This document shows, in pieces, positions 13,824-21,822 of a stretch of DNA of 23,815 bases. The first letter of the stretch is position 1, and the number at the start of each line of letters is the position of its first letter. The translations under genes were made by a program, and so were the position numbers. A model generated the notes under the pieces. It was given only the letters and a program-made list of their open reading frames with translations, made no database searches and had not been told where the DNA came from. Location: the IMG/VR virus record IMGVR_UViG_3300011115_000285, positions 1 to 23,815 of that record; one strand, 5' to 3'. The DNA is from a virus.

Positions 13824-14447
13824 ATGTTTAACTTAGCTAATCTCCCGCAAGTGAAATCTCTCTCTACAGCCCTGCGTACCATTCAAGCAGACGTGGGCCC
13901 CACCGGCACAGTCATCATCAAGATGGACAAAACTGGGCATTGGGTGTTTGGCGCTGATCAAGACGAAGTCGAAGCTGACTCAACATGGGCGGTCAATCCG
14001 TTCTCATTTGTCCACGGCTACATTGCGTGGGGCGATGGTGACGTTCTTGGCGAAAAGATGGTGTCGGTGTCTGAGCCATTACCCGAGATGGATGACGCAC
14101 CACCAATGGCCAAGCGCGGTTGGGAAGTGCAAGTCGGTATGTCACTCAAGTGTCTGACCGGCGAAGACAAAGGTTTGGAAGCGCGTTACACCACCACATC
14201 AGCCGGTGGTAAGCGTGGCGTACAGACCCTAGCTGTTGCGATTGCTGAGATGGTTGATAAAGACCCATCAAAGCCAGTTCCGGTTGTGTTGCTCAAAAAG
14301 GAACACTATCAGCACAAGAGTTACGGTCGTATCTACACGCCCTTGTTTGACATTCAGTCGTGGGTGTCAATGGATGGTGAAGAGCCTGTTGCTGAAATAG
14401 AAGAAGTTGAGGCAGCACCTACACGTCGTCGTAGGAGCGCAACATGA
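13824..14447 (+). CDS. Conserved replication-operon protein, probable ssDNA-binding protein
   Basis: A 207-residue protein with a beta-rich centre ('GWEVQVGMSLKCLTGEDKGLEARYTTTS', then 'VPVVLLKKEHYQHKSYGRIYTPLFDIQSWV'). The tail is acidic (EEPVAEIEEVEAAP) and ends in a basic RRRR. An acidic tail after an OB-like core is typical of single-strand DNA-binding proteins, although here the last residues are basic. In related phage modules the slot after DUF2800 is filled by a DUF2815 ssDNA-binding protein, so this is likely a functional equivalent; that is inference from order and shape, not from a recognised domain. AAAGG lies about 8 nt before the ATG. Stop overlaps the next start (ATGA). Confidence 0.6.
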   Translation: MFNLANLPQVKSLSTALRTIQADVGPTGTVIIKMDKTGHWVFGADQDEVEADSTWAVNPFSFVHGYIAWGDGDVLGEKMVSVSEPLPEMDDAPPMAKRGWEVQVGMSLKCLTGEDKGLEARYTTTSAGGKRGVQTLAVAIAEMVDKDPSKPVPVVLLKKEHYQHKSYGRIYTPLFDIQSWVSMDGEEPVAEIEEVEAAPTRRRRSAT

Positions 14448-14578
14448 TTGACTTGAACCTGACAGTCGCAGAAGTCAATTCGATCATGGCAATGTTAGGT
14501 CGTCAACCTTACGAACAGGTCGAAGGCCTGATTGCTAAGATTCGCGCGCAAGCGTTGCCGCAGTTGCCAAAAGAGTAA
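14444..14578 (+). CDS. Conserved 44-aa phage protein
   Basis: A 45-codon frame: MIDLNLTVAEVNSIMAMLGR, then QPYEQVEGLIAKIRAQALPQLPKE. This short protein pattern recurs in phages of many Proteobacteria beside early genes (from memory). It predicts two helices joined by a turn at GRQPYEQ, and has no Cys or His. The start is an ATGA overlap with the upstream gene. Function unknown. Confidence 0.75.
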   Translation: MIDLNLTVAEVNSIMAMLGRQPYEQVEGLIAKIRAQALPQLPKE

Positions 14579-14680
14579 GGTTCAGGGGGCGGTTAACCGA
14601 GCGTTTGAGGATGTCGTAAGTGTATATTTTTCTCGGTTTCCTATACACATTCAGTAACGACCAAATCAACGCCCCCACCT
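14578..14680 (+). promoter_or_regulatory. Structured leader/element before the DNA polymerase gene
   Basis: Three sets of complementary segments fill this 109-nt gap. Outer: AGGT (14578-14581) plus GGGGGCG (14585-14591) against CGCCCCC (14670-14676) plus ACCT (14677-14680), 11 pairs with a 3-nt bulge. Inner A: AACCGAG (14595-14601) with CTCGGTT (14632-14638). Inner B: GTGTATA (14620-14626) with TATACAC (14642-14648). A and B interleave, so they are either a pseudoknot or two alternative hairpins. The following ATG has no Shine-Dalgarno sequence. It could be a translational control RNA or, at the DNA level, an origin or operator. Confidence 0.45.
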
Positions 14681-14687
14681 ACACCTT

Positions 14688-16589
14688 ATGATCCTATACC
14701 TAGATTTTGAAACCCGCAGCCATTGCGACCTAAAGAAGCATGGCGTCTACAACTACGCGCAAGACTCGACGACTGACGTCTTGTGTATGTCGTATGCGTT
14801 TAATGATGAAGACGTACAAACATGGCTACCCACGCAGCCCTTCCCCGAGCGTGTGCGTAACCATAAGGGTTTGATCTACGCTCATAATTCGGCGTTTGAA
14901 AGACTGATTTTTTGGTATGTCCTGCAAATAAATTTTAAACTTGAGCAGTTTTACTGCACCGCAACACAAGCACGCGCCAACTGCGCGCCTGGTTCCCTTG
15001 AAGACGTGGGGCGCTTTGCCGGTGCCAGTATGAAGAAAGATTACCGTGGCGCGCAGCTTATCCGTGCGCTATGTGTGCCGCCGTTTAAAGATGACCCCGC
15101 GCTAATGACCGAGATGGTGCAATACTGTGAGCAAGATGTCCGCGCCATGCGCGCCGTCAGTCAAAGCCTACGCCCCCTATCAGACGAAGAGTTAGAGGAT
15201 TATCATGTCAACGAAAAAATCAACGACCGAGGTGTATTGGTGGACGTGCATCTTGCCCGCGCAGCTATTGGTTATGCGGCCACCGAACTCGCGGATATTC
15301 AGTCCATTGTCCGAGCCGTCACCAATGGCGCAATCACGTCAGTCCGCTCACCGAAAATGCGCGAGTGGGTCAAAGAAAGATTAAGTTCAGAACACCTTAA
15401 ACTAATGGAGATTGAAGATGGAAAGTATTCGATTGACAAGCGCGTTCGCGCAAACCTACTCGCCACGGACGATCTACCGCCCGACGTTGCCGAGGTTATC
15501 CAATGTGCCGATGATCTCTGGGCGTCGTCGGTTGCAAAGTTCTCACGCCTACGCGACTTGGCAGATGTGGAGGACAATCGCGTCCGTGGAGCCTTTGTGT
15601 TCGCCGGAGGCTCGGCTACAGGTCGCGCGTCTTCTTACGGCGCGCAAGTCCACAACTTCACGCGCAAATGCGCCAAAGCGCCCGAGTCTGTTAGAGCAAG
15701 CATGGTTCAAGGACACCCCATCGTTCCCAAGTTTGGTGCGAGGGTCACAGACGTCTTAAAAGGGATGCTACGCCCCGCAATCATACCGGCTAAAGGTAAG
15801 TCCTTGGTGGTTGCCGATTGGGCGCAGATCGAAGCGCGTATGACCCCGTGGTTGTCAGGGCGCGGCGATGACGTGCTAGACGTGTTCCGCTCAGGGCGTG
15901 ACATTTACGTTCGTGAGGCCGCTGCCATGTACAAGATACCCGAGTCAGAAGTCACCCCCGATCAGCGTCAGATCGGTAAGGTCGCAATCCTCGCCTGTGG
16001 TTTTGGCGGGGGTATCGGCGCGTTCTCTGCAATGGGCCGAGCGTACGGGCTAAGTATGAGTGAGTCTGACGCGCAGCGCACCGTTGACGCTTGGCGACGC
16101 GCGAACCAATGGGCTGTCAGGTACTGGCAAGAATTAGAAACCGGCTACATGATTGCCATGAGAAATAAGGGGCGCGAAATCGTGGCGGGTAGGGTTACCT
16201 ATCTGTTCGATGGCGCGCACCTGTGGTACGCTTTACCTTCGGGTCGCATCCTCTGCTACCCCTACGCCAAAATAGAAGAAGATGGTATCAGCTACGCAAA
16301 AGCCGCATGGAAACCCGCCGCCGATGCGCGCGAGTGGCCACGCGCAAGACTATGGCGTGGCTTGGCTTGCGAGAACATCACCCAAGCGTGCGCCAACGAC
16401 GTTTTGCGCTACGCCCTTCGCCAACTCGATAATGTCGTCTTACATGTTCACGATGAAATTTGTATCGAAACCGATCAACCTGAAGCCGTCACCGAGCGGC
16501 TAAGAGAGGTTATGTGTACGCCGCCCGCATGGGCGCAAGGTTTGCCCTTAGACGCCGAGATCAGCACAATGACTAGATACGGCAAGTAA
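14688..16589 (+). CDS. polA: DNA polymerase, family A, with 3'-5' exonuclease
   Basis: A 633-residue replicative polymerase of phage type without a 5'-3' exonuclease domain. Exonuclease: Exo I LDFETR (D6, E8), Exo II AHNSAFE (65-71), Exo III YCEQDVRA (Y146, D150). Polymerase: motif A VVADWAQIEAR (D377), motif B RQIGKVAILACGFGGG (R427, K431) and motif C HVHDEICIE (D589). In motif B, Leu435 falls where E. coli Pol I has Phe762 and Phe439 where it has Tyr766, so this is a Leu762-type viral PolA. The start (MILYLDFETRS) fits homologues, but there is no ribosome site within 20 nt and the upstream gap is strongly self-complementary. A hairpin follows the stop directly. Confidence 0.93.
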   Translation: MILYLDFETRSHCDLKKHGVYNYAQDSTTDVLCMSYAFNDEDVQTWLPTQPFPERVRNHKGLIYAHNSAFERLIFWYVLQINFKLEQFYCTATQARANCAPGSLEDVGRFAGASMKKDYRGAQLIRALCVPPFKDDPALMTEMVQYCEQDVRAMRAVSQSLRPLSDEELEDYHVNEKINDRGVLVDVHLARAAIGYAATELADIQSIVRAVTNGAITSVRSPKMREWVKERLSSEHLKLMEIEDGKYSIDKRVRANLLATDDLPPDVAEVIQCADDLWASSVAKFSRLRDLADVEDNRVRGAFVFAGGSATGRASSYGAQVHNFTRKCAKAPESVRASMVQGHPIVPKFGARVTDVLKGMLRPAIIPAKGKSLVVADWAQIEARMTPWLSGRGDDVLDVFRSGRDIYVREAAAMYKIPESEVTPDQRQIGKVAILACGFGGGIGAFSAMGRAYGLSMSESDAQRTVDAWRRANQWAVRYWQELETGYMIAMRNKGREIVAGRVTYLFDGAHLWYALPSGRILCYPYAKIEEDGISYAKAAWKPAADAREWPRARLWRGLACENITQACANDVLRYALRQLDNVVLHVHDEICIETDQPEAVTERLREVMCTPPAWAQGLPLDAEISTMTRYGK

Positions 16590-21246: not shown

Positions 21247-21414
21247 CTATTTATATCAGGACATACCCTTAGTTTGTAGGCAATTAAGGGTAATGGAAAG
21301 GTAACGCAAAAGGGCGCGAAGTGCTTTCAGAAAATGCTTTATAAATTACAGGCTTATATGCTTTGTAGGGTAATAAAAGTAATAGTAATTGTGTAATGAG
21401 ATATTTTGATAATA

Positions 21415-21434
21415 TACTGTATATATATACAGGT
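21415..21434. promoter_or_regulatory. LexA (SOS) box
   Basis: The perfect 16-bp palindrome CTGTATATATATACAG (21417-21432) matches the CTGT-N8-ACAG core of LexA boxes and 18 of 20 positions of the E. coli consensus TACTGTATATATATACAGTA. A possible promoter (TTGTGT 21389-21394, 18-bp spacer, TATACT 21413-21418) has its -10 overlapping the box, the classic place for repression. Confidence 0.65.
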
Positions 21435-21440
21435 GTTTAT

Positions 21441-21500
21441 ATGTCGCATAATTGGCACCGCGCAAACGTAGCAAGCTTGCGACCTTTGTGGGCACTTTAA
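21441..21500 (+). CDS. Possible 19-aa leader peptide downstream of the LexA box
   Basis: A 20-codon frame (MSHNWHRANVASLRPLWAL) with AGGTG five nucleotides before the ATG, itself directly after the LexA box. It ends within the 23-bp palindrome at 21488-21510, as a leader peptide controlling a hairpin might. There is no downstream gene before terminase at 21834. It may well be a chance frame. Confidence 0.2.
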   Translation: MSHNWHRANVASLRPLWAL

Positions 21501-21510
21501 AAGTGCCCAC
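21488..21510. repeat. 23-bp palindrome
   Basis: GTGGGCACTTT (21488-21498) and AAAGTGCCCAC (21500-21510) are perfect inverted repeats about one base. CCTTT (21483-21487) and AAAGG (21521-21525) can extend the stem beyond a small internal loop. No U-run follows closely. It could be an operator, origin element or processing hairpin. Confidence 0.6.
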
Positions 21511-21546
21511 ATTGCCCTTCAAAGGAAACTTAGTATTGTATTTTAA

Positions 21547-21745
21547 TGGCCGTTTGCCGGTGGCCGGCAACACTCGGCCGCCGGCCGTTAGCCTGGCACA
21601 ACTCGGCCCGCATTGTGTCGGCCGCCGGCCGCCAGGCACTCGGCCGCTAGGCACTCGGCCGCCAGCCGGTAGCATTCGGCTCGCCGGCCGTCAGGCACTC
21701 GGCCGCCGGCCGCCAGCCAGAGCCCGCCGGCTTGTTGCAGCGCAG
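21547..21745. repeat. G+C-rich block of short palindromic repeats
   Basis: CGGCCGCCGGCCG (palindrome about a central C) occurs at 21575-21587, 21619-21631 and 21700-21712. AGGCACTCGGCCGC occurs at 21634-21647, 21649-21662 and 21693-21706. The units are irregularly spaced and interleaved with variants (CGGCTCGCCGGCCG, GCCGGTGGCCGGC). The block is sharply different in composition from the A+T-rich DNA before it. Confidence 0.65.
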
Positions 21746-21795
21746 CATAGGGGTAGGGGGGGAGGGCCCTGCGAGGAGCCCTAGCTAGCGGAGGG

Positions 21796-21822
21796 TTAGC
21801 CACCAAAATTTTTTTATATAAT
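21796..21822 (+). promoter_or_regulatory. Weak promoter-like site before terminase small subunit
   Basis: TATAAT at 21817-21822 within an A+T-rich tract, with a poor -35 (TTAGCC 21796-21801, 15-bp spacer). The -10 ends 11 nt before the terminase ATG, so a transcript starting here would have only about 5 nt of leader; the ATG has no ribosome site nearby. Confidence 0.3.

Follow-up and report, generated by a model that had tools for sequence, protein, structure and literature searches.

A pseudoknotted RNA element upstream of polA in a phage genome, with copies at varying places in other freshwater phages and in Polynucleobacter and a likely relative in the Atu_At1 RNA of Rhizobiales

The translational operator of phage T4 gene 43 is a pseudoknot-like RNA that precedes a phage DNA polymerase gene. 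Phages also encode small RNAs that act in trans, such as PreS of phage lambda, which are RNAs of single phages that pair with mRNA (review, PMC12197685). Among bacterial sRNAs, GsrN of Caulobacter depends on sigma-EcfG and uses a C-rich loop for antisense pairing to katG (PMC5869019). For the orphan sRNA family Atu_At1 (Rfam RF02496) of Rhizobiales no open paper was found in a literature search. Here we describe an RNA element that resembles Atu_At1 in design. It may share with the PreS-type RNAs that it is a small phage-encoded RNA acting on host genes, but unlike these it forms a conserved pseudoknotted class across many phages and has bacterial counterparts. Unlike the T4 operator it is not tied to polA, since it also occurs before unrelated genes and in bacteria.

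The DNA analysed here, called the window, is a stretch of 23,815 nucleotides from a virus (IMG/VR virus record IMGVR_UViG_3300011115_000285). A preliminary description made from the letters of the window had noticed, just upstream of polA, an outer stem enclosing two perfect 7-bp complementarities in the interleaved order A-B-A′-B′. This arrangement was recovered in the sequence and in a repeat search, which returned a wider arm pair at 14576–14592/14672–14688 (17 nt, 76% complementary), and it is backed by covariation. The interleaved pattern by itself is weak evidence: when the leader was shuffled 20,000 times with dinucleotides preserved, 89 of the shuffles contained perfect interleaved 7-mers, and the window has eight sites of this kind. 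The folding energy of the leader was ordinary as well (z = −0.7 and −1.1); thermodynamic folding gives no signal because nested folding is blind to a pseudoknot. It is the comparison of relatives that makes the fold certain at the sequence level. The features are collected in Table 1.

Table 1. Features of the window around the RNA element; A, B, A′ and B′ are the strands named in the preliminary description.
Feature	Position	Strand	Evidence or remark
Whole pseudoknotted RNA element, 92 nt	14585..14676	+	Covariance model R1 (cmsearch), 98 bits, E 4e-23; score not independent, since R1 was built from 32 sequences that include the window
P1 5′ strand GGGGGCG, closing stem of 7 bp	14585..14591	+	A2: 7/7 pairs two-sided, 99.5% of cells paired
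P1 3′ strand CGCCCCC	14670..14676	+	Covariation in A1 and A2
Pseudoknot 5′ strand AACCGAG (A)	14595..14601	+	Two-sided pairs 5/7 in A1, 6/7 in A2
Pseudoknot 3′ strand CTCGGTT (A′), within P4 loop	14632..14638	+	A1, A2, loss in L019/L024
P2 5′ strand TTGA	14605..14608	+	TTGA/TCAA exchanged for TCAA/TTGA and TCGA/TCGA; 100% paired
P2 3′ strand TCAA	14666..14669	+	Same exchanges, A2
Internal loop GGAT, facing CAAA 14662–14665	14609..14612	+	AGGATG invariant in phage set A2, where search patterns preset the motif for many members
P3 5′ strand GTCGT	14613..14617	+	4/5 pairs covary (A2)
P3 3′ strand ACGAC	14657..14661	+	A2
P4 5′ strand GTGTATA (B)	14620..14626	+	6/7 pairs two-sided (A2)
P4 loop TTTTTCTCGGTTTCC, 15 nt, houses pseudoknot 3′ strand	14627..14641	+	T-run and TTYC conserved; partly preset by A2 search patterns, also visible in A1
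P4 3′ strand TATACAC (B′)	14642..14648	+	A2
207-aa replication-operon gene	13824..14447	+	Weak match to a PHROG family annotated as nucleotidyltransferase
44-aa ORF	14444..14578	+	Stop 6 nt before P1; absent from relatives such as L002 and L013
Family A DNA polymerase (polA)	14688..16589	+	Start ATG without Shine-Dalgarno sequence

A search of IMG/VR for proteins similar to that of polA found 68 loci, many of which carry the element. In set A1, 24 elements gathered through similarity of the polA protein and not through an RNA pattern, both sides had changed at 17 of 30 pairs and 97% of the cells were paired, as against 36–51% in slid versions. Set A2 contains 32 more diverse phage elements, chosen partly by pattern searches in which portions of the core and the loop were preset, a selection that biases sequence conservation and leaves the pairing of the pseudoknot 5′ strand, P1, P2 and P3 unbiased. 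In this set two-sided changes were found at 26 of 30 base pairs, 95.6% of the cells were paired, and the covariation score was 0.69 compared to 0.23 in shuffles; neither shuffles nor slid controls ever came near. The structure thus passed the examination of covariation in relatives that the preliminary description had named as its check. On this comparative basis, the element has a fold of four nested helices, P1–P4, plus a pseudoknot in which the P4 loop folds back onto the strand between P1 and P2.

The preliminary description had left the choice between a pseudoknot and two mutually exclusive hairpins; it had overlooked P2 and P3. The pseudoknot was retained and the hairpins were abandoned: both interleaved helices covary, and so do P2 and P3, which fit only the nested fold with a pseudoknot, in which A′ and B′ are separated by 3 nt. 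Natural variants point the same way. Two 74-nt elements (L019, 4134–4207; L024, 4137–4210) have simultaneously lost ca. 11 nt in the region of the 5′ pseudoknot strand and ca. 7 nt of the loop, so that both pseudoknot strands are gone while P1–P4 are kept. This joint loss, with the covariation of both helices, argues for a pseudoknot and against exclusive hairpins. In a third variant (L032), just before polA (5001), P1 is capped by a GCAA tetraloop where the core would be, with flanks unchanged. The retention of P1 where the core is shortened or replaced suggests a local role for this stem, and the three natural mutants indicate which parts of the element are dispensable.

The stems also show which molecule is functional. 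In phage-type stems G-U cells exceed A-C cells 20:1 and 21:1; since G-U is tolerated and A-C hardly, the functional molecule would be the RNA of this strand. The corresponding ratio in the Atu_At1 alignment was only 47:28, to which alignment errors in P4 may contribute. The preliminary description had mentioned an origin acting as DNA as its alternative, and a replication origin, a packaging site or a protein-binding cruciform would suit an element that belongs to a replication module in the window and has terminase genes nearby in two other phages (L077, L188). The asymmetry between G-U and A-C speaks against such a structure, as do the promoters that precede bacterial copies at a fixed distance (see below), and we consider it highly improbable.

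The arrangement in the window is compact. P1 follows a stop codon by 5–7 nt in the window lineage, and in many relatives ca. 10 nt separate it from the polA start; in several of these the stop codon of the 207-aa gene directly precedes the element. The polA start was confirmed to lack a Shine-Dalgarno sequence, as had been noted before, and the preliminary description had proposed from this a polA-specific leader, possibly an operator through which the polymerase controls its own mRNA as T4 gp43 does. The place of the element immediately ahead of polA, in the window as in many relatives, would be in keeping with such an operator. However, there is no constant association with polA among phages: one or more genes separate the element from polA in L003, L004, L010, L015, L028, L030, L046, L054 and others, other phages carry it at unrelated sites, and the bacterial loci have no relation to polA. 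A polymerase operator is therefore strongly disfavoured and hardly credible. Many polA relatives lack the element, so it appears dispensable, though records may be fragments. In five loci (L003, L004, L010, L016, L053) a gene starting with MEPLNFC lies between element and polA; insertions may be frequent at this site.

Elsewhere in phages the element separates terS from terL (L077, L188; gene families were checked for L077) or sits between two genes that converge on it (L151, L163, L179); in L168, L171, L178 and L181 it runs antisense to both flanking genes. The downstream gene varies widely. Downstream genes starting with SGGRTS- or SCGAAS-like sequences in L028, L076 and L164 look PAPS-reductase-like by eye. 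Of 30 phage records, 27 matched R1 at E ≤ 0.1, each with a single confident copy; of a further 19 records, 6 matched R1 and 13 gave no match. The only second match across both sets, in the record of L010 (G1079, C1:8727–8761, + strand; 12.2 bits, E 0.66, 35 bases), is probably due to chance; the confident copy of this record lies at 24073–24164. As far as these sequences go, the element is not a polA leader, and freshwater phages carry one copy per genome, in intergenic gaps at varying places. BLAST searches with the leader or the consensus against named phages gave no match, and a pattern scan across genomes yielded, among the matches listed, mostly chance matches and two real ones (L276, L288).

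These positions also bear on a cis-acting role within the operon, by which the element would protect or process the local mRNA, or bring stop and start codon close together for re-initiation on a polA without Shine-Dalgarno sequence. The close fit of P1 behind a stop codon and ahead of a start codon in the window lineage, the absent ribosome binding sequence and the retention of P1 in the three variants are all in favour, and a local role of P1 in this lineage is possible. For the element as a whole such a role is unlikely, because copies that oppose both neighbours, or that lie where two genes converge, are in the leader of neither, the downstream gene varies, and bacterial copies have promoters of their own. 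Promoters were also found for a few phage copies: strong sigma-70-like promoters end 4–7 nt before P1 in L187 and L177 (2 of 17 phage copies outside operons; 0.17 expected), and a further case, L192, depends on where P1 is set to begin. Some copies have T-runs after P1. Inspection of the window sequence revealed neither a promoter adjoining P1 nor a T-run. In L173 a parS-like palindrome, TGTTCCACGTGAAACA, adjoins the element ca. 20 nt before P1.

Outside phages, R1 matched Polynucleobacter sp. AP-Kaivos-20-H2 and one Burkholderiaceae MAG. The element was found in 19 of 186 Polynucleobacter genomes, three of which have two copies. In most copies ca. 52 nt upstream are conserved along with the RNA while wider flanks differ. 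This upstream stretch contains an imperfect palindrome and a TATAAAGT box that lies 34–39 nt before the element. The box occurs in no phage copy, and it is missing in L321, L324 and L318, of which the last (G414), beside lysis-type genes, is probably a prophage copy. Some Polynucleobacter copies have GGAAAC in place of the conserved internal-loop motif. Judged by these sequences, Polynucleobacter mostly appears to encode the element as an independent gene under a promoter of its own, at differing loci. The neighbours at some loci are genes for oxidative stress or light sensing (KatG, SodC, cytochrome bd, BLUF), which is suggestive of a link to stress for that part of the Polynucleobacter loci. 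Samples of Burkholderiales and Burkholderiaceae gave only matches of the Polynucleobacter type, and the Alphaproteobacteria sample contained no copies apart from those in Rhizobiales; the large genome samples were searched with strict filters and few candidates scored per genome, by which weak copies may be missed.

The scattered single copies, together with a pseudoknotted fold that has conserved junction nucleotides, might also be expected of a self-cleaving or otherwise catalytic RNA, a small mobile ribozyme at scattered phage sites. No Rfam ribozyme family matched, and dedicated bacterial promoters at a fixed distance point to the RNA as a product in its own right, which makes catalysis very unlikely.

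The closest known family is Atu_At1. At the gathering threshold Rfam gave no match on the window; below it, RF02496 aligned over its full length to 14582–14675 with 28.6 bits (gathering threshold 60 bits), with an E-value of 0.016 when 4227 families were compared with 701 bases, or about 4e-6 for a single family. The same family gave 25.6 bits on L153, and R1 gave 22 bits (E 0.006) on L144. Against 25 Atu_At1 loci R1 gave six weak matches, all at the element (E 0.9–5), and most loci had no confident match. When the phage-type model is matched to Atu_At1 copies, or the reverse, scores are weak (10–29 bits); the matches fall on elements. A comparison of the Atu_At1 consensus with phages gave only short chance matches.

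The two RNAs share the order of their parts: P1, pseudoknot 5′ strand, P2, an internal loop of the GAU/CAA type, P3, an A-rich spacer and P4. They share a P4 loop of the form T4-5-pseudoknot-TTYC, and pseudoknots covary at the same place in A2 and in A3, a set of 27 Atu_At1 sequences. In A3 98.8% of the pseudoknot cells were paired and 4 of 6 pairs were two-sided; some of its sequences were found through a fixed pseudoknot sequence and the chromosomal ones through the Rfam model. The pseudoknot is missing from the structure line of RF02496 in Rfam. The lengths of P2 and P3 and the 3′ bulge differ from the window element. Both RNAs occur in bacteria as well as in putative phage contigs of IMG/VR, where Atu_At1 scored above threshold in four contigs, including L144 with a phage DUF2800-polA module (names read from ORFs). 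Its distribution in Rhizobiales is patchy (22 of 199 genomes). Common descent of both branches is likely from these sequence comparisons.

Upstream of Atu_At1, GGAAC-N14-18-GTT, which we take to be the consensus of the stress-type EcfG promoter, was present at a similar distance in 10 of 25 loci (0.19 expected). Such promoters are thus common at Atu_At1 copies, in contrast to the window copy, where no promoter adjoins P1. Stress-related neighbours were not seen around the tested Rhizobiales loci. On pAt, near Atu_At1, a ROSE thermometer lies upstream of an Hsp20 gene (L070, 7951–8043). The promoters suggest that Atu_At1, like GsrN, is controlled by the general stress sigma factor of Alphaproteobacteria; homology to GsrN was rejected, as A2 and A3 have no C-rich loop, sequence likeness is lacking and the neighbours differ.

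Taken together, we propose, with a probability of about 0.6, that the element is a structured noncoding RNA of ca. 92 nt that acts in trans as a stable sRNA and here lies within a replication operon. Trans action is proposed from the scattered positions, the independence of orientation, the one confident copy per phage and the bacterial promoters. Processing of the operon mRNA would be needed to release the window copy. With its main loop engaged in the pseudoknot and its conserved residues in the loops where helices meet, the RNA would more plausibly bind a host protein or RNP than act by antisense pairing; it might thereby mimic or compete with an RNA of the host, and a link to stress may be involved. 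One structured RNA per phage genome that also exists in bacteria suggests interference with host physiology at the RNA level. More tentatively, the Burkholderiales (Polynucleobacter) and Rhizobiales (Atu_At1) branches may form one class of stress-regulated pseudoknotted sRNAs that phages have repeatedly taken up in single copy as mimics by which to steer the stress physiology of the host, which we regard as rather doubtful at present. The comparison joins an orphan family to a phage and Polynucleobacter RNA of like design and adds to it a pseudoknot and a likely promoter class. The compact phages that carry the element offer material for functional tests of Atu_At1-type RNA.

Two other identities were rejected. 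The AGGAUGU of the element resembles the CsrA motif, but each element has a single site, it lies in a structured internal loop, and relatives have GGAAAC or CGAUG instead, which argues against a CsrA sponge. A tRNA-like end, in the window the 7-bp P1 followed by ACC, is not conserved. Elsewhere in the window, at 21350–21810, repetitive-looking ORFs rich in G, R, P and A on both strands suggest GC-rich intergenic tandem repeats.
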